Of a DNA stretch of 39,272 bases, positions 25,475 through 35,240 are shown in pieces. The notes below the pieces were generated by a model. That model saw nothing but the letters and a program-made list of their open reading frames with translations, made no database searches and was not told the origin of the DNA. The DNA is taken from assembly GCA_019689515.1 (NCBI GenBank), contig JADGHI010000002.1:1-39272 (forward strand). Reading direction: 5' to 3'. The stretch is from Acetobacteraceae bacterium. Its GTDB lineage: Bacteria > Pseudomonadota > Alphaproteobacteria > Acetobacterales > Acetobacteraceae. The position numbers and the translations under genes are program-made. The stretch's first letter is position 1. Each line of letters opens with the position of its first letter.

Positions 25475-26242
25475 TCAGGGCATCTGCAGGCCACCGTTCA
25501 CCTCGACCACCTGCCCGGTGATGAACCCCGCCATCTCATCGGAAGCGAGGAAAAGGTACGCCCCGACGCATTCCTCGACCGTGCCGATGCGCCGCATCGG
25601 AGTCAGACGAATCGAGGCCTCAAGTTGGTGGGCGGGCATGGTCGCGGCCTGGTCGGGTTTGCCGATGACCCCGGGCGCCACGGCATTGACACGGATTCCA
25701 TACCGAGCGACTTCCTTCGCCAGTCCGCGCGTGAAGGTCGACACGAACGCTTTTGACGCTGCGTAGAGCGTCGACTTGCTTCCCCCGCCGCTCCGAGCGG
25801 CGAGGGATGTCGTTGAAATGATGGAGCCTCTGCCCCGCGCCTCCATGAACGGCAGGGCAGCCCGCGAGCAGGCAAAGACCGACCGCGCGTTCAGATTCAC
25901 GATCTCGTCGTAGAGCGCGTCGTCGATATCCCGGAGGGGATGCCGCTTCACGACGCCGCCGGCGTTGTTGACCAGCACGTCCAGCCCTCCCAGGGCGTCG
26001 TGGGCCTCCTTGACCAGCCTTGTGCAAGCCTCGACGGACCGGACATCGGCCCGCAGCGCGACGGCCTCTCCGCCGGCGGCCTGGATCTCCTTGACGACCG
26101 CCATGGCCTCCTGCTCGCTGGAATTGTAGTGCACGACGACCCGGGCGCCCTGCGCGGCGAAACCTTTCGCAACCGCGGCCCCGATGCCGGTGGATGAACC
26201 GGTGACGAGGACCGCCTTTCCCTCCAGGTCTGTGATCCGCAC
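25475..26242 (-). CDS. Short-chain dehydrogenase/reductase
   Basis: A 255-aa classical SDR oxidoreductase. The NAD(P)-binding TGSSTGIGAAVAKGFA is at residues 14-29 and VNNAGG near residue 91. The catalytic Ser lies in ISTTSLAAR and the YxxxK pair in LYAASKAFV. HYNSSE after the second beta strand hints at NADP(H) preference. The C-terminus GFITGQVVEVNGGLQMP is standard. Translation is taken from GTG at 26242 because GGAGGAG lies eight bases before it; the track ORF runs much further into unrelated frames. It sits downstream of the LacI-type regulator in the transporter operon and probably oxidises or reduces the imported compound or a derivative. Confidence 0.93.
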   Translation of the reverse strand: MRITDLEGKAVLVTGSSTGIGAAVAKGFAAQGARVVVHYNSSEQEAMAVVKEIQAAGGEAVALRADVRSVEACTRLVKEAHDALGGLDVLVNNAGGVVKRHPLRDIDDALYDEIVNLNARSVFACSRAALPFMEARGRGSIISTTSLAARSGGGSKSTLYAASKAFVSTFTRGLAKEVARYGIRVNAVAPGVIGKPDQAATMPAHQLEASIRLTPMRRIGTVEECVGAYLFLASDEMAGFITGQVVEVNGGLQMP

Positions 26243-26295
26243 TTCTCGGTCTCCTCCGTCTAGAGCTGTATCCAGCCACTCCGCGCGCGTCAGGC

Positions 26296-27399
26296 TTACC
26301 CTGCCAATGGAGCCGTCCGTCGAGGCCCAGGAGCATCGGGCGGCGCGGCGGTCGTGCCGCGCACCACAAGTTCGAGGGGGAGCTCCGCGGGGATGCTGAA
26401 CTTCCGGCCGTCGATGCGGGCCAACAGATAGTCGGCGGCGAGCGCGCCGATCGCATGCTTGGGCGTCCTGACCGTCGTCAGTGGCGGATTGAGGTGCGCG
26501 GCGATCTCCAGGTCGCCGACCCCCACGATCGACATCTGCCCCGGCACGTCGATGCCCTGCGCCTGGGCCTCCAGCACCAGCCCGAGCGCAACGACGTCGT
26601 TGTTCGCGATCAACGCGGTGGGGATCGGTCCGCTCCGCTGAATTCGCCGGAAGGCCTCTCGGGCAGCCTCGATCCGGTATTCGGTGGAGGTCATGCGCCA
26701 CTCCGGAAGCGGAATCCCGTGCCGCCGAAGCGCGCTGCGAATGCCGTCAACGCGGGCGATGACGCGGTCGTTGTGGCGGGTCAGACCGGCGACTACGCCG
26801 ATCTCCCGGTGTCCAAGGCCGACAAGGTGGTCCACAACGAGGAGTGCGAGTGCCGCGTTGGAATAGCCGATCGTCGGGTGCTCGCTCGCCCGCGCGGGCG
26901 CCCAGGTCTGGACGAAGGGAACCGAGGCGCGCCGCAGGAGCTTGCAAAGATCCCTGCTGTGCGTCACGCCGACGAGCATCAGGCCGTCGACACCGCGCTC
27001 GATCATGGTGCGGACGCTGCGGTACTCGAGATCCTCGTCGTAGCCGAAGGTAGCGAGCAGCATCGTGTAGCCCCGCTGATCCAGGCGGTTCTGGAACGCC
27101 TCGATGGCGCCCGAAAAGATCGTGTTCGACAGGTTGGGGACGACGACGCCCAGCGCGTGGGAGCGCCTCGACGCCAGGGCCCGCGCCGCGCCGTGCGCGA
27201 TATAGCCCAGCCTCTTGGTCGCCTTGAGGACCCTTTCCCGCAGCTCCTCGCTCACCTGGGACGGATGGTTCAGGACGCGCGACACAGTTGCCGCGGAGAC
27301 CTTGGTCGCCTGCGCGACGTCCTGAATTCTGACCTTGGAGCGCCTGGCCGTGCTCACTCGGCTCGCGGGCGATGGGCCAGGCCTCACCGGGCGCGCCAT
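26296..27399 (-). CDS. LacI-family transcriptional regulator
   Basis: A 367-aa repressor with an N-terminal helix-turn-helix and hinge (VRIQDVAQATKVSAATVSRVLNHP, about residues 22-45) followed by the periplasmic-binding-protein-like effector domain (LGVVVPNLSNTIFSGAIEAFQ through PPLTTVRTPKHAIG). The ATG at 27397-27399 (MARPVRPGPS) lies 16 bp after the stop of the upstream ABC ATPase gene. A GTG at 27357 just before the helix-turn-helix is an alternative, but neither has a strong ribosome site. It is embedded in the transporter operon, and a perfect LacI-type palindrome overlaps that operon's start (33536-33549), so autoregulated, substrate-induced control is the natural reading. Confidence 0.93.
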   Translation of the reverse strand: MARPVRPGPSPASRVSTARRSKVRIQDVAQATKVSAATVSRVLNHPSQVSEELRERVLKATKRLGYIAHGAARALASRRSHALGVVVPNLSNTIFSGAIEAFQNRLDQRGYTMLLATFGYDEDLEYRSVRTMIERGVDGLMLVGVTHSRDLCKLLRRASVPFVQTWAPARASEHPTIGYSNAALALLVVDHLVGLGHREIGVVAGLTRHNDRVIARVDGIRSALRRHGIPLPEWRMTSTEYRIEAAREAFRRIQRSGPIPTALIANNDVVALGLVLEAQAQGIDVPGQMSIVGVGDLEIAAHLNPPLTTVRTPKHAIGALAADYLLARIDGRKFSIPAELPLELVVRGTTAAPPDAPGPRRTAPLAG

Positions 27400-27415
27400 G
27401 CCGTCCCCAAGCCCA

Positions 27416-28395
27416 TCAGTTGGCGGGGGTACGGAGGTGGCACGCCACGCTGTGTCCCGAGGAATCGCCCAGCAGCGCAGGCTCCTCCTCGCGGCAGCGC
27501 GCAACGGCGATGGGGCAACGCGTATGAAAACGGCATCCCGATGGGGGATTGATCGGGCTCGGAACATCACCCTTGAGGACAACGCGCCTGCGGCGCATCC
27601 GCGGGTGGGAAACCGGAACTGCAGCCAGGAGCGCCTCGGTGTAGGGATGTCGGGGCTCTGCGAAGAGCATGTCGCGCGGCGCGGTCTCGACGATCTTGCC
27701 GAGGTACATGACGGCGACCCGGTGGCTGATGTGCTCCACCACGCCGAGGTCGTGCGCGATGAAGAGGTAGCTGAGCCCGTACTCCTCCTGCAGGTCCATC
27801 AGCAGGTTGATGACCTGGGCCTGGACCGACACGTCGAGTGCCGAGACAGGTTCGTCGGCAATGACGACGCTCGGCCCGAGGGCCAGAGCGCGCGCGATGC
27901 CGAGGCGCTGCCTCTGGCCGCCGGAGAACTCGTGCGGATAGTTGTTGCGCTGGTCCGGGCGCAGGCCGACCCGGGCGAAGAGCGCCGCGACGCGCTCCTG
28001 CTGCTCCGCCCGTGTACCGATGCCGAAGTTGATGAGCGGCTCCTGGACGATCTCTCCCGCCGTCATGCGGGGGTTGAGCGAGGAGTAGGGGTCCTGGAAG
28101 ATCACCTGCATCTTTCGCCGCTTGGCGATGAGCGCGGATCGGCTGAGGGAGGTGATGTCCTCGCCCTCCAGCACGATCCGCCCGGCGGTCGGCTCCACAA
28201 GCCGAAGGACGGCCTTTCCCACCGTGGACTTCCCACAGCCACTCTCACCGACCAGGCCGAGCGTCTCCCCTGGTGCGATGGCGAAGCTCACCCCGTCAAC
28301 CGCGTGGAGCCGGCGGCGGCCAGATCCGAAGAGGCCACGTCCGACGCTGTAATGCTTGACCAGACCCTGGACGTCGAGAACGGAGGTCTTGCCAG

Positions 28396-28399
<4 letters not shown>
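27416..28399 (-). CDS. Peptide/nickel-type ABC transporter ATPase (DppF-like)
   Basis: One of two cytoplasmic ATPases energising the importer. This 327-aa protein has Walker [11 protein letters not shown]-loop [13 protein letters not shown], signature [15 protein letters not shown], Walker [13 protein letters not shown] and H-loop FIAHDLGVV. The C-terminal extension [23 protein letters not shown] is specific to oligopeptide-type transporters. It starts with GTG at 28399, overlapping the stop of the upstream ATPase gene as GTGA, which fixes the start; the track start is 41 codons too long. Confidence 0.95.
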
Positions 28400-29387
<988 letters not shown>

Positions 29388-29388
<1 letters not shown>

Positions 29389-30278
29389 CACAGCCTCCTC
29401 GCCAGCCGCGGGTCGAGCATGTCGCGCAGGCCGTCACCGAGCACATTGATCGACAGAACCATCAGCGCCAGGAAGATGCTCGGGAACAGGATGTTCCAGA
29501 AGGCGATCTGAACGTAGAGACGGCCCTCCGCGATGATGTTGCCCCAGCTCGGGATCTCTGGAGGCGTGCCGACCCCAAGAAAGCTCAGGTAGCTCTCCAG
29601 GAGGACCGCGGAGGCGGCGATGTAGGTCGCCTGCACGATCAGCGGTGCGAAGGTGCTGGGAAGGATGTGCCGGACCATCAGGCGCGGGAAGCGGGTGCCG
29701 ATAGCCGTCGCCGCCTGGATGTAAACCTGCTCGCGGACCGACAGCACGACGGACCGAACCAGGCGCACGACGCGCGGCACCTCCGGGATCGTTATGGCGA
29801 CGATAACGACCCAGATGCTGGCGCGAGTGAGGGACATCAGCCCGATCGCCAGCAGGATCCCGGGGATCGCCATCAGCCCATCCATGATCCGCATCAGGAT
29901 GGCGTCGGCCATTCGGAAGTAGCCGGCGATGACGCCGATCAGCAGCCCGATCGCGGTGCTCGCCAGCGCGACGGACGCGCCGACAACGAGGGAGACACGC
30001 CCGCCATATAGCGTCCGGCTGAAGATGTCCCGGCCGTAGGCGTCGGTGCCGAACCAGTATGCCTCGTTCGGGGGAAGCAGGCGGTCGACCACGTTCATCT
30101 CGAACGGGTCATAAGGCGCCATCCAGGGCGCAACGAGAGCCGAGAGTATCAGAATGACCAGCAGGACGGCCCCCATCGCCGGCAGGAGGTACCGCCGGAT
30201 GCGGCGCAATCTGCTGGGCCGCCGCCGGGCCGTCGGCGCAACAGCGGCCGTCGCCGCCGTCACCTCGCTTGCGGCCAT
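29388..30278 (-). CDS. Peptide/nickel-type ABC transporter permease (DppC-like)
   Basis: A 296-aa inner-membrane subunit. After a basic N-terminus comes the first helix ([23 protein letters not shown]), then the periplasmic [31 protein letters not shown], which is diagnostic for DppC. The EAA loop contacting the ATPase is [23 protein letters not shown]. The end [16 protein letters not shown] is standard. The ATG at 30276-30278 overlaps the preceding permease stop by one base (TAATG). The track ORF is 193 codons too long. Confidence 0.95.
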
Positions 30279-31219
30279 TAGTACCGGATCCTCGGATCGA
30301 GGAGGGAGTAGGCCAAGTCGATCGCAAGGTTCACCAGGACGTAGACACCGGCGATAACCAGAATGACACCTTGGATGACCGGGTAGTCGCGCTGAAGAAC
30401 GGCATCGATCGTGAGCCGGCCGATGCCCGGGACCGCGAAGACGCTCTCGGTCACGACAACCCCACCGATGAGCAAGGCGAGCCCGGTTCCGATCGTCGTC
30501 ACGATCGGCACCGAGGCGTTCTTCAGCGCATGGAGGATCAGAACGCGCGGCTCTGCCAATCCCTTGGCGCGCGCCGTGCGGATGTAGTCCTCGTTCAGCG
30601 TCTCCAGCATCGTCGCCCGCGTGATGCGCGCCAGCAACGCGGTGTAGACGAGCCCCAGTGCGACGGTCGGGAGCACAAGATGCCGGGCGAATCCGACCGG
30701 GTCCTCTGCGAGGCTGACGAAGCCCTGCACGGGCAGGAGCTCGAGGGTAAGCGAAAAGCCGATGACCAGCCCATAGCCGATCAGGAAGACCGGCACGGAG
30801 AAGGCAAGGACCGACAGCGCCATGATGCTCTGATCGATCCAGGAACCCGCCTTCCACGCGGCGACGACCCCCATGGGTATCGCGAGGGCGACCGCGAACG
30901 TCATGGTCGAGATGGAGAGGGCCAGCGTTGGCTCGACCCTCTCCAGAATCAAGCCGAGGACGGGCCGATCGAGGTAGATGGAGGTCCCGAGATCACCGGA
31001 CAGCAACTGTCCCAGCCACCAGACGAACTGCTCCGCAAGCGAGCGGTCGAGGCCGAGGCGCTCGCGGATCTGGGCGATGTCCTCGGAAGTCGCGTGGTCG
31101 CCCGCGATGATCGCGGCCGGATCGCCCGGACTCAGCCGGAGCATGAGAAAGACGATCACGGCGACCACGCCCATGACCGGTAGCGTGGCGAGGACTCGTC
31201 GGGCGACATAGGACCACAT
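30278..31219 (-). CDS. Peptide/nickel-type ABC transporter permease (DppB-like)
   Basis: A 313-aa inner-membrane subunit beginning MWSYVARRVLATLPVMGVVAVIVFLMLRL and continuing SPGDPAAIIAGDHATSEDIAQIRERLGLD, the standard DppB N-terminus. The EAA loop is DYIRTARAKGLAEPRVLILHALKN. The C-terminus LAYSLLDPRIRY is complete. It lies 17 bp after the solute-binding protein gene and overlaps the next permease by one base, so all four membrane and ATPase genes are translationally linked. Confidence 0.96.
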   Translation of the reverse strand: MWSYVARRVLATLPVMGVVAVIVFLMLRLSPGDPAAIIAGDHATSEDIAQIRERLGLDRSLAEQFVWWLGQLLSGDLGTSIYLDRPVLGLILERVEPTLALSISTMTFAVALAIPMGVVAAWKAGSWIDQSIMALSVLAFSVPVFLIGYGLVIGFSLTLELLPVQGFVSLAEDPVGFARHLVLPTVALGLVYTALLARITRATMLETLNEDYIRTARAKGLAEPRVLILHALKNASVPIVTTIGTGLALLIGGVVVTESVFAVPGIGRLTIDAVLQRDYPVIQGVILVIAGVYVLVNLAIDLAYSLLDPRIRY

Positions 31220-31236
31220 GGCCGGCGTCCTTCAGC

Positions 31237-32811
31237 TCATCGCTTCTCGATGTTCCAATAGACGGGAAGGCCCGCCGGCAGCACTCCGTGGATGTTGGAA
31301 CGGATCGCGATGGGCTGCGTGTATTGGCCGTACGGGATGTAGGGCAGCGATTCCCACGCACGCCGGTGGATGCGCTCCAGGATCGGGCGGCGCTTTTCAA
31401 GGTCGCTTTCGCGGGCCCACTCCGCGACCATCGCGCTCAGCTCTTCGTCGCAGGCCCAGCCTGGATTCGCGCGTTCGCACCGCGAGTTGAACCAGGTGTT
31501 GGCGGGCGGGGTCGCGGTAGTCGGGCCGCCATGCGTCGTGATGAACAGGTGGTAGCCCCCCTCGTAGGGATTGTTCCTGCTCGCCCGCCGGGACAGCAGC
31601 GTGCTCCAGTCCATCGCCTGCACGTCGACGTTCACGCCCGCACGGCGAAGGCTCTGGACGAGAACCATGGTCGCCGCGTTGTACTGAGGACGGTCCGTCG
31701 GCTGCAGGACAACGATCGGTTCGCCATTGTAGCCCGCTTCCCGGAGGAGCTGGCGCGCGCGCTCCACGTTGGGCTGGCGGAAGGGCTCGCTGCCGACCTC
31801 GGTGCCGTTCGCCGAGCCGCACATGAAGAAGGCTCCGCAGAACGGGCGGTAGAGCTGCGGATTGCCGACCACCACACGCATGAAGTCTTCCTGCCGCACC
31901 AGATGAGCCAAGGCCTGCCGGGCACGGGGATCGTTGAACGGGGGATAGAGGTGATTCGGCCTGATCAGGCCCTGGGTCCCCAGAGTGTCGATGTCAACGA
32001 TGCGGATGTTGCGGTTGCGCTGAAGCGTGGCGATGAAGTCGAGCGGGGGCGCTTCGAAGTAGTCGACCTCGCCGGAGGTCAGCGCCGCGAGTGCCGTGTT
32101 CTGGTCTGGGATGTAGAGCCACTCCACGCGCTCGACGAGGGCGCGCTTGCCGCCGGACAGGTAGTCGGCCGGCTCCTGGCGTGGCACGTAGTCCGGGTTG
32201 CGCCGGTAGACGACCCGATTGCCCGGCCTCCATTCCTCGCGGACGAAGATGAAAGGACCAGAGCCAATGGTCTCGGTCACCTGAGTATTGGGCGGGGTCT
32301 GTGCGATCCGCTCCGGCATGATGTAGGCAGGGTTCGACGGCTTGGCCAGCGTGTCGAGAACCATGCCCCAGCGCTCCTTCAAGCGGATGTCGAAGGTGCG
32401 GTCATCAACCACGTCAATCGACGCGGTGACTGCCGCCATCTGCTGGCCCATCGCGTCCCGGGCCATCCATCGCCGGAGTGACGCCACCGCGTCCTGCGCT
32501 CGGACCGCGCCCCCGTCATGAAAGCGGAGGCCAGGACGCAGCCGGATGCGGTAGACGAGACCATCCTCCAGCACCTCGTGCCCCTCCGCCATCTGCGGCC
32601 GCGGCTCGAAGCGCGAGTTCATCGCGTAGAGTGTGTCGTAGATGAGGTAGGCATGGCGGCCGGTGATGAACGCCGTCGTCCAGACCGGATCGAGGATCTG
32701 AAGGTTGGCGTGCACGACGACGCGCAGGGTGCTGGCACGGTCCTGCGCCATCGCAGCGCCGGGGCCGCCGAGGCCCAGCGCCAGGACGGCGGCCCAGAGC
32801 AAACGCTTCAT
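31237..32811 (-). CDS. ABC transporter solute-binding protein, family 5
   Basis: A 524-aa periplasmic receptor delivering substrate to the DppBC-like permease. A Sec signal peptide (MKRLLWAAVLALGLGGPGAAMAQ) precedes DRASTLRVVVHANLQILDPVWTT. The family 5 phrase DGLVYRIRLRPGLRFHDG is clear, as is SGPFIFVREEWRPGNRVVYRRNPDY. The ATG at 32809-32811 has GGAGGAAT upstream, and the track start is ten codons further up. Family 5 proteins bind di- and oligopeptides, opines, glutathione, nickel or sugars. The co-encoded SDR, the LacI regulator and the broken thiolase suggest a carbon source rather than bulk peptides, but the ligand is unknown. Confidence 0.94.
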   Translation of the reverse strand: MKRLLWAAVLALGLGGPGAAMAQDRASTLRVVVHANLQILDPVWTTAFITGRHAYLIYDTLYAMNSRFEPRPQMAEGHEVLEDGLVYRIRLRPGLRFHDGGAVRAQDAVASLRRWMARDAMGQQMAAVTASIDVVDDRTFDIRLKERWGMVLDTLAKPSNPAYIMPERIAQTPPNTQVTETIGSGPFIFVREEWRPGNRVVYRRNPDYVPRQEPADYLSGGKRALVERVEWLYIPDQNTALAALTSGEVDYFEAPPLDFIATLQRNRNIRIVDIDTLGTQGLIRPNHLYPPFNDPRARQALAHLVRQEDFMRVVVGNPQLYRPFCGAFFMCGSANGTEVGSEPFRQPNVERARQLLREAGYNGEPIVVLQPTDRPQYNAATMVLVQSLRRAGVNVDVQAMDWSTLLSRRASRNNPYEGGYHLFITTHGGPTTATPPANTWFNSRCERANPGWACDEELSAMVAEWARESDLEKRRPILERIHRRAWESLPYIPYGQYTQPIAIRSNIHGVLPAGLPVYWNIEKR

Positions 32812-32868
32812 GGTCTGATTCCTCCCAGATTTTGTCGCCACCGCCGGCGCGTGGCGTCTCGTGGCCAG

Positions 32869-33407
32869 TCAGTTGCAGACGCGGAACTTCGGCAGCGTCA
32901 GCTCCTCGTCCACCGTCTCGAAGATCACCTCGACACGCGCACCGACGCGCGGGGCCTCAGCCGCCATGCCAACGACACCGGAAATCGGCATCGGCCCCTC
33001 GTCGAGGCCGACGAGGTAGGGAAGATCGGCCTGGAAGCCCTCCCAACAGGCGCGGTGGAACCGCACCCAGGACAGGAGGATCCCGCGCTCCGGCGCAGCA
33101 TGGTCACAGAGGTCCGCCTCCAGCGCCGGCGCCTCGATGATCGCCATGCCGCACATCCGCCCGTGAACGGCAATTGCGCGGTCCAGCAGGGCTTCAGCCC
33201 CAGTATCTCCCCCACGCACGCGTAGAACGGCACGCGGCATGCGAGCAGGCCATCAATCTTGCTCTTGTCGAGGCCGCAATCCTCGATCGCGTTGCGGAAA
33301 GTAAGGGCGCCGCGTCCGTATTCGTCGATGTCCAGGAGGTTCCCATAGGCCGTGTCGCCGACGCCGACGATGGCGACGCGATCCTTCGGCTTTCGGAAAT
33401 CACCCAC
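32869..33407 (-). pseudogene. Thiolase N-terminus fused by deletion to a DUF35 OB-fold C-terminus
   Basis: Read on the minus strand, the first part is the start of a lipid-transfer/acetyl-CoA acetyltransferase-type thiolase: KDRVAIVGVGDTAYGN, FRNAIEDCGLDKSKIDGLL, then GEILGLKP. The frame shifts near 33165 and resumes as HGRMCGMAIIEA..ALEADLCDH, still thiolase. It then becomes RGILLSWVRFHRACWEGFQADLPYLVGLDEGP to LPKFRVCN, the C-terminal half of a Zn-ribbon OB-fold (DUF35) protein. These two families are commonly encoded side by side and act together on CoA esters. One deletion removed most of the thiolase, including its active-site cysteine region, and the front of its partner. GTG at 33407 has GGAGAA upstream. 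Confidence 0.8.
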
Positions 33408-33474
33408 GACCGGGTTCTCCGCGTCGCGTTGCAGGCCCGCTGATCACCGGCCGGATGCCGGGCGTGACGCCCAT
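33400..33474 (-). CDS. 24-codon ORF at the head of the transporter operon
   Basis: ATG at 33472-33474 with an excellent GGAGGAAG ribosome site opens MGVTPGIRPVISGPATRRG and stops after 24 codons, overlapping the start of the thiolase remnant. It may be a leader ORF, or the surviving N-terminus of a first gene lost to the same decay. It is listed because of the ribosome site and its place directly after the operator, not because of any family match. Confidence 0.3.
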   Translation of the reverse strand: MGVTPGIRPVISGPATRRGEPGRG

Positions 33475-33535
33475 CTCGCTTCCTCCCCTCGAAGTACTGT
33501 TGCCTTCCGCATCTTCCCGCGAACAGGCTGCGCCT

Positions 33536-33549
33536 TGAAAGCGCTTTCA
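33536..33549. promoter_or_regulatory. LacI-family operator palindrome
   Basis: TGAAAGCGCTTTCA is a perfect 14-bp palindrome with the central CG typical of LacI/GalR-family sites, and it fits the pattern TGWAANCGNTNWCA. It begins seven bases after the -10 box of the operon promoter, so it would cover the transcription start. The LacI-type regulator encoded at 26296-27399 in the same operon is the likely ligand. Confidence 0.8.
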
Positions 33550-33556
33550 CGAGGTG

Positions 33557-33586
33557 AATCTAGGCGCCAGAGATCTCGTTTGTCTA
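33557..33586 (-). promoter_or_regulatory. Sigma-70-type promoter of the transporter operon
   Basis: On the minus strand TAGACA, an 18-bp spacer and TAGATT match five of six and four of six positions of the -35 and -10 consensus. The LacI-type palindrome follows directly. This is the best promoter I see in the window and points at the operon running to 25355. Confidence 0.65.
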
Positions 33587-33710
33587 CCGCCGAATTTGCC
33601 GATGCGGCTGGTGCGCTATGTAGCGAGCGCCCACGGTTTCACGCGTCAAGACTCGCATTACCAGCGCATCGGATTCGTGTCTGGCCTGAGATGGACGACT
33701 CTGGTTGGTC

Positions 33711-34350
33711 ATGACGGAGTTCATACCGTTCAGCCGCGACCAGGCCTTCGTGCTGCCGCCGGGCGCCCAGGGCAGATTGCCGGCGGGCGACGTGCGCATT
33801 TCGAGGTAGCGACGGTGGATTGGGTTCCGCTCGGCACATTCGCCGTATGCCCGATCCCCGGCGGCGAGCCGCGGCACGAGCCGCGCCTGCTGCCGGCGCT
33901 ACTGATGGACGCCTGTGCCAACGGCATCTTCTCCGTGCGGCGGATCGAGCGGACGACGTATCGCGACCTCGGAGTGCAGTACGTGGCAGCGAACCTGCGC
34001 CCCGACCACGACACCATCGCGCCTTCCGCGGCACCAACCGCGTCGCCTTCGAGGCGGCCTGCCTGCTGGTGCTGCTGATCGTGCGCGAGTCCAGTGTGCT
34101 GCGGCTTGGCACGGTGGCCATCGACGGCACCAGGCTCGATGCCAACGCCTCCAAGATCCACTCGGTGCGCTACGTCCGCGCGGTAGGATGGCGCGTCGGG
34201 CTCGCTGCCGACATCGCCGCGCTTACCGCCCCCGCCGAGGTGGCGGATGCCGAGGCGCAACCCGGTCCGCAGGCCCCGCCCGCCGGGATTGCTCGGAGCG
34301 AGGCCACCACCGGCTGGACCCGGCCGCGTCCGCTGGATGCGAGGCTGCTG
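33711..34350 (+). mobile_element. Frameshifted IS1182-family transposase remnant
   Basis: The N-terminal half of an IS1182-type transposase is recognisable in successive frames: FIPFSRDQAFVLPPGAQGRLPAGD, then FAVCPIPGGEPRHEPRLLPALLM, ANGIFSVRRIERTTYRDLGVQYVAANLRPDHDTI, and after another shift FRGTNRVAFEAACLLVLL with LGTVAIDGTRLDANASKIHSVRY. The last segment holds the first catalytic Asp region (DGT). At least two frameshifts are present, and the C-terminal half with the remaining DDE residues is absent, so the element is inactive. Confidence 0.8.
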
Positions 34351-34393
34351 GCTCGACCGGTAGGTCGGTGTCGATCGTCCGCTGCTGCTGTGA

Positions 34394-34714
34394 GCACGCG
34401 AGGCGGACGCCGGGGATGCGCTGTGGGTGTCGTGCCGAGGACAGCCGCTCGGGCGCGGTGGGATGTCCCGGGCGATCCGCCAACTCGGCGAGGAGCTGCT
34501 CGGGCACTCCATCAACCCACATCGCGTCCGCCACACCTTGGCGACGACGCGGCTCTGGCCCGATCTGGGGCCCCTCAAGGTCGCCGCCACCGCGCTGTCG
34601 CACCGCGACACCAGCATGGTGGCTGAGTTCCATGACCGTTCCGGCGATGCCGCGGCAGTTGGGACTTGGCGCTCGATCACGGCGCACCTGATGCCGGCCC
34701 CAAAGGCGCACTAG
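34394..34714 (+). pseudogene. C-terminal fragment of a tyrosine recombinase
   Basis: This frame reads DALWVSCRGQPLGRGGMSRAI, then LGHSINPHRVRHTLATTRL and LKVAATALSHRDTSMVAEFHDRSGD, the end of a phage-type integrase catalytic domain. HRVR supplies the HxxR box and SHRD the second histidine region, but the nucleophilic tyrosine expected in EFYDRSG is histidine. It is joined directly to the IS1182 remnant with no N-terminal domain or start, so it is a dead fragment. Confidence 0.75.
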
Positions 34715-34788
34715 GGTCCGGCCCCATGAACCGGATTCCCGCTGGGGCGGCATCATGATTCACCCTCTCGGGCGGCGGGTGGCGTGGG

Positions 34789-34955
34789 ATGTCCGAGGAG
34801 TCGTGGCTGGATGATCGGCAGTGGCGATGGCTCGCGACGCTCCTGCCGCACAAGCCGCGGGGCGTTCCGCAGGTGGACGACCGGCGGCAGATGATCGGCG
34901 GCAACATCCACATGCTGCAATCTGGTTGCCTCTGGGTGGATGCCGCTCGTCGCGT
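34789..34955 (+). mobile_element. N-terminal fragment of an IS5-family transposase
   Basis: LDDRQWRWLATLLPHKPRGVPQVDDRRQMIGGNIHMLQSGCLWVDA matches the beginning of IS5-type transposases (LTDEQW..LxPLLP...R.DDRRVxxGIxxxLxSGCxWRDxP). It breaks off after about 55 residues, and no catalytic DDE core follows. It abuts a minus-strand Bug receptor fragment, suggesting insertion into that gene and later deletion. Confidence 0.75.
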
Positions 34956-34979
34956 AGCACCACCGAGAGGCACCGCTGC

Positions 34980-35240
34980 ACACCCCCCGCCGGGGTGCCG
35001 GCGGGCGCGTAGAGACCATGCCAGGTGCTCATTCCCTGGCCGGGACCCGCCTTCGGCCGCGGTCGGTATCTCGGGTAGGCTCGGCAGGCGTGAGGGGCGG
35101 CTGACGGCGTAGGCGTAAAGTGGGCGGCCCTCGCCGATGACGGGCGCTGTGCGGGTGGCATGGTCGCAGAGCAGGCCGATGCGCCCGGCGATGGTCGGGC
35201 CGGTAACGCGGAAGGCGACGACGGTGGCCCGGTTGCCCGC
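34980..35240 (-). pseudogene. Internal fragment of a Bug/TctC receptor
   Basis: On the minus strand TIAGRIGLLCDHATRTAPVIGEGRPLYAYAVSR and RLPSLPEIPTAAEGG correspond to the C-terminal third of a Bug receptor (family: DLIAGRxDLxCD, then LPDVPTxAEAG). The match continues in another frame as STWHGLYAPAGTPAGG. The first two thirds and the last 60 or so residues are gone, and there is at least one frameshift. It runs opposite to the intact Bug receptor at 35495. Confidence 0.7.

Follow-up and report, generated by a model that had tools for sequence, protein, structure and literature searches.

In this analysis, we identify a 14-bp perfect palindrome, TGAAAGCGCTTTCA, as the probable single operator of a local, autoregulated repressor of the LacI family. 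The repressor would be encoded within the operon it controls and would block the operon promoter until an effector binds, a reading to which we assign a probability of about 88%. All coordinates refer to the window, the 39,272-nt stretch of Acetobacteraceae DNA analysed here, unless a related locus is named, and the features are collected in Table 1. From the site, the promoter-like elements, the gene order, the conservation and the uniqueness, all of which were read from sequence, we infer binding, repression rather than activation, and induction by a ligand.

Operator, promoter elements and their conservation

The palindrome lies on the minus strand 7 nt 3' of the hexamer TAGATT, and the layout TAGACA-18 bp-TAGATT-7 nt-palindrome described in an earlier note is exact on this strand. 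Within the window, there is no second exact copy. The site is an even palindrome with a central CG and stands upstream of its target operon, as is typical of LacI/GalR operators. In LacI-family regulons, such sites are found 30-140 nt before the start codon and autoregulation is the norm: 72% of 1303 studied regulators are autoregulated, and most operators are even palindromes with a central CG (PMC4052901).

A genome-wide search, which the earlier note had set as a check, did not return many unrelated copies of the palindrome. In the 4,491,522 bases of the source genome, which is metagenome-derived and 78% complete, so that a further operator or LacI protein could be absent from the assembly, we found one exact copy, none with one mismatch and four with two mismatches. 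With a first-order Markov model fitted to the window, 0.003, 0.19 and 4.7 copies are expected, respectively. All four two-mismatch sites are located inside long open frames, and their number corresponds to chance level.

The TAGACA/TAGATT pair is the sole sigma70-like match in the region 26000-34500. As shuffled sequences yield 0.6 ± 0.8 matches, the promoter scan taken alone is weak evidence. Orthologs of the regulator were collected by scanning genome contigs and searching 398 family genomes, and the surrounding DNA was compared. The orthologs are 66-73% identical to the regulator and occupy ten loci besides the window (L027/L049 as well as L029/G030:C15 represent the same contig and were each counted once), which span six genera other than that of the window. 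A 12-bp core of the palindrome, GAAAGCGCTTTC, is invariant in 11/11 loci and is found directly 3' of a -35/-10-like pair. In all ten other loci, the distance from this core to the downstream thiolase start, with which the structural part of the operon begins, is 64-130 nt. The -35-like hexamer in the relatives reads TTGACA (5 loci), TAGGCR (4) or TGGTCA (1), the -10-like hexamer reads TACACT, TATAAT, TATGTT or TACGCT, with a weak GAAGCT in one genus, and the pair ends 3-7 nt 5' of the operator. Summed across the loci, the promoter match score is 87 compared to a shuffle mean of 43, and none of 2000 shuffles reached 87. Five of the ortholog loci come from one genus; the excess persists when one locus per genus is used (55 versus 27.5 in shuffles).

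The operon is collinear in 10/10 relatives and encodes a thiolase-family protein, a ChsH2-like Zn-ribbon/OB protein, a solute-binding protein, OppB, OppC, OppD, OppF, the LacI-family regulator, a double CoA-transferase III (CaiB), a metallophosphoesterase (MPE) and an SDR oxidoreductase, with the transporter block being absent from two loci (L027 and L029). The triad of promoter, operator and in-operon LacI regulator proposed in the earlier note recurs in ten other ortholog loci. The genomes of these ten relatives contain 1-3 operator-like sites each at up to one mismatch. A second motif in L027, at 10027, resides in the coding sequence of the CaiB gene, is not shared and is probably due to chance. 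The SMP-30 gene, which closes the cluster in relatives, has been inverted in Pseudoroseomonas oryzae (L028) and no longer adjoins the operon; there, it carries its own operator 52 nt upstream. Across the family, 153 of the 398 genomes hold a site with no more than one mismatch. Motif presence at this level discriminates poorly, since sites of similar sequence serve other LacI proteins and some matches arise by chance; what counts is the position in the orthologous operon.

Table 1 Features of the operon and its control region (coordinates of the window unless stated)
Feature	Position	Strand	Evidence or remark
-35-like hexamer TAGACA	33581..33586	minus	read from sequence; same place in relatives
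-10-like hexamer TAGATT	33557..33562	minus	18-nt spacer from the -35-like hexamer
Putative LacI-family operator TGAAAGCGCTTTCA	33536..33549	.	perfect palindrome, central CG; core GAAAGCGCTTTC in 11/11 loci
Shine-Dalgarno GGAGG of leader ORF	33482..33486	minus	counted from sequence
Leader mini-ORF, 24 codons, MGVTPGIRPVISGPATRRGEPGRG	33400..33474	minus	stop overlaps the first gene's start
Thiolase-family gene remnant (about residues 4-106 of 376)	33094..33407	minus	frameshift near 33160; tblastn with L028 thiolase, 68-76% identity, two frames
ChsH2-like Zn-ribbon/OB-fold remnant (C-terminal half)	32869..33075	minus	PF01796; joined to thiolase remnant
Family 5 solute-binding protein, Opp/Dpp-type ABC transporter	31237..32841	minus	PF00496, 1.1e-64
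OppB-like permease	30278..31219	minus	PF00528 + PF19300
OppC-like permease	29388..30275	minus	PF00528 + PF12911; start inferred from homologs
OppD-like ATPase	28396..29391	minus	PF00005 + PF08352
OppF-like ATPase	27416..28420	minus	PF00005 + PF08352; start approximate
LacI-family repressor, proposed binder of 33536-33549	26296..27399	minus	PF00356 2.4e-16, PF13377 5.5e-32
SDR oxidoreductase, terminal gene of this operon copy	25475..26236	minus	PF13561
Second operator copy in L028	19479-19492 (L028)		upstream of inverted SMP-30 gene

Operon genes and the state of this copy

The solute-binding protein of the window is 81-85% identical to its counterparts in relatives that retain the transporter, and the SDR is 81-84% identical in relatives, where it is placed after CaiB and MPE. 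CaiB and MPE, which every relative has between LacI and SDR, are missing from the window, where only 26237-26295 separates the neighbors. At the head of the operon, a blastn comparison to L028 skips ~1.0 kb: the thiolase and ChsH2-like remnants are fused by a deletion, and a frameshift is present in addition (33075-33165 for both). As judged from its sequence, the first structural gene, the ChsH2-partner thiolase, looks like a pseudogene in the window, and it is possible that the ~1-kb deletion and the frameshift represent an assembly error. Just upstream of the promoter, 34427-35112 on the plus strand carries fragments of a phage-integrase-family protein and of an IS4/5-type (DUF4096) transposase. 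No repeat copy of the upstream stretch 33587-34760 was found in this genome.

These features bear on the alternative that the site is a relic within an operon decaying from its broken head genes, whose circuit is possibly no longer used in this organism. The fused and frameshifted head genes, the lack of CaiB and MPE and the integrase/transposase fragments directly upstream would all fit such a decay, as would the finding that the regulator is missing from both same-genus genomes searched. However, the damage spares the operator, promoter and leader ORF as well as the transporter, regulator and SDR genes, and part of it could stem from misassembly of a metagenome-derived genome. We thus consider a relic rather unlikely, although it deserves to be kept in mind, and the circuit may still be intact despite damage to the pathway. 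The 'catabolite uptake' put forward in the earlier note stays plausible in view of an Opp-type ABC transporter encoded together with CoA-thioester enzymes, but the first genes of the operon look broken in this copy.

The LacI-family regulator and the proposed circuit

The product of 26296-27399 shows both domains of a LacI/GalR protein, with 59.7 bits for PF00356 (cut-off 27) and 111.6 bits for PF13377 (cut-off 26.5). A PF00356 search of the 78%-complete genome returned this regulator as the single match, and in six near-complete relatives the ortholog is likewise the single PF00356 protein. As no other LacI-family protein was found in the genome, the regulator is the only LacI-family candidate for the operator. 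This argument by elimination does not apply to G192, G165, G413 and G422, because they encode 2 to 13 LacI proteins each. Among the orthologs, the recognition helix VSAAT[VA]SR and the hinge AHGAARALASRRS are invariant or nearly so, as is the operator core. Both protein elements are changed in homologs at 36-41% identity, and other half-sites, e.g. TGAACGCGCTTACA, are found near neighboring homologs with different DNA-binding domains.

The regulator gene is part of a tight same-strand cluster with gaps below ~60 nt, which is conserved in relatives. Its location within the operon suggests autoregulation, a reading of the earlier note that gains support from the triad being kept in ten loci and from the sole LacI protein in the window genome and six relatives. 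Judging from the -10-like element at 33562-33557, the transcript start should lie near 33550, so that the operator covers the start, a position suited for a steric block by a repressor. In the absence of inducer, a dimer of the regulator would sit on TGAAAGCGCTTTCA over this start, with the operator centered at about +7, and would block RNA polymerase at the operon promoter, thereby shutting down the regulator's own gene as well. Binding of the effector, which is probably the substrate after import or a catabolite formed early in the pathway, to the PBP-like C-terminal domain would then release the repressor and allow transcription of the operon.

Some LacI-family proteins act as activators, and the regulator might accordingly bind its site as an activator or dual regulator. 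We regard this as improbable, as in every locus the site is located 3' of the -10-like element, where a bound protein occludes polymerase. Even less probable is a cre-like site serving a global CcpA-type regulator instead of a local one. The operator does agree with a sequence cited as a cre-like motif (PMC5171806), and CcpA (1.7e-41) is, next to a GntR regulator (3h5o, 1e-50), among the closest solved relatives of the regulator. However, a global regulator is expected to have many sites, whereas one is found here and few in each relative, and seven genomes show no further LacI-family protein. The CcpA model TIGR01481, which has a cut-off of 442 bits, reaches only 167.8 bits. The circuit also differs from CcpA and its cre site in being a local regulon with one site in an alphaproteobacterial host, where nothing points to a global regulon, and the reading as a CcpA-type global site is largely refuted. 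A gluconate repressor was rejected, too. The regulator resembles Pseudomonas GntR and the E. coli GntR/IdnR-type proteins in that NF052440 (GntR gluconate type) is its best named model, 3h5o is its closest solved chain, and SMP-30/gluconolactonase genes occur in the conserved cluster. Unlike these repressors, it scores far below the equivalog cut-off (253 bits versus 400), and its targets are other genes, with no gluconate genes in the operon. Hence, no equivalog-level match to the GntR or CcpA models was obtained. A functionless chance palindrome, for which one could only cite that the -35/-10 pair by itself is no better than shuffles, is refuted by the conserved footprint in 11/11 loci and the genome-wide uniqueness and is practically negligible.

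The proposed repressor circuit is an ordinary local LacI regulon, a kind of circuit that is well known. It shares with other local LacI regulons the palindrome type, the central CG, the distance of the site to the start codon, the regulator within its own target operon and the usually single target operon (PMC4052901). It differs from their classical sugar operon in its target, which comprises a thiolase/ChsH2-like pair, a CoA-transferase III, an SDR and Opp-type uptake.

Leader ORF and functional implications

The earlier note took 33474 as the start of the operon. The real first structural gene starts at GTG 33407, and ATG 33474 instead opens the 24-codon leader ORF. All 11 loci possess such a leader ORF, which comprises 6-24 codons, is preceded by its own Shine-Dalgarno sequence and overlaps the start of the thiolase gene by 4 or 8 nt; shuffled leaders are expected to show this architecture in 1.75/11 cases. 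Most thiolase starts lack a good Shine-Dalgarno sequence. The leader peptide sequence varies across genera, and the architecture is kept. In L048, L050 and L043-L047, possible short hairpins were seen by eye between the operator and the leader Shine-Dalgarno sequence.

The simplest reading of the leader ORF is translational coupling by re-initiation. The 4- or 8-nt overlaps leave the following gene in differing frames relative to the leader, which makes frameshifting improbable and re-initiation the natural explanation. Short upstream ORFs coupled translationally to the next gene are described for iraD (PMC5574718) and cbrX-cbrA (PMC6591292); there as here, a short ORF with its own Shine-Dalgarno sequence has a stop overlapping the next start, and the position behind a LacI operator sets the present leader ORF apart. 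We tentatively suggest a second, translational layer of control, in which re-initiation at the thiolase start that the leader overlaps would require translation of the leader and possibly be tuned by it. The leader ORF may also play an active regulatory role that depends on a ligand or on codons. In practice, a genome annotator would mistake this conserved ORF for the start of the first gene.

The enzymes of the relatives, namely the thiolase with its ChsH2-like partner, the CoA-transferase III and the SDR, point to a predicted CoA-thioester side-chain degradation. Most of these operons include the Opp-type transporter, and SMP-30/gluconolactonase genes are located nearby. A lactone or hydroxy acid would be our guess for the substrate. 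Among the papers searched, none described a LacI/thiolase/CaiB operon. The pathway and its LacI regulator appear to be undescribed in Acetobacteraceae (Roseomonas-like bacteria), while the control circuit is an ordinary one. Our analysis would connect a LacI regulator of Acetobacteraceae with a single operator and a single operon. The relatives in which one LacI protein is paired with one strong site offer a well-defined setting in which to identify the effector and, through it, the substrate of the thiolase/CoA-transferase/Opp pathway.
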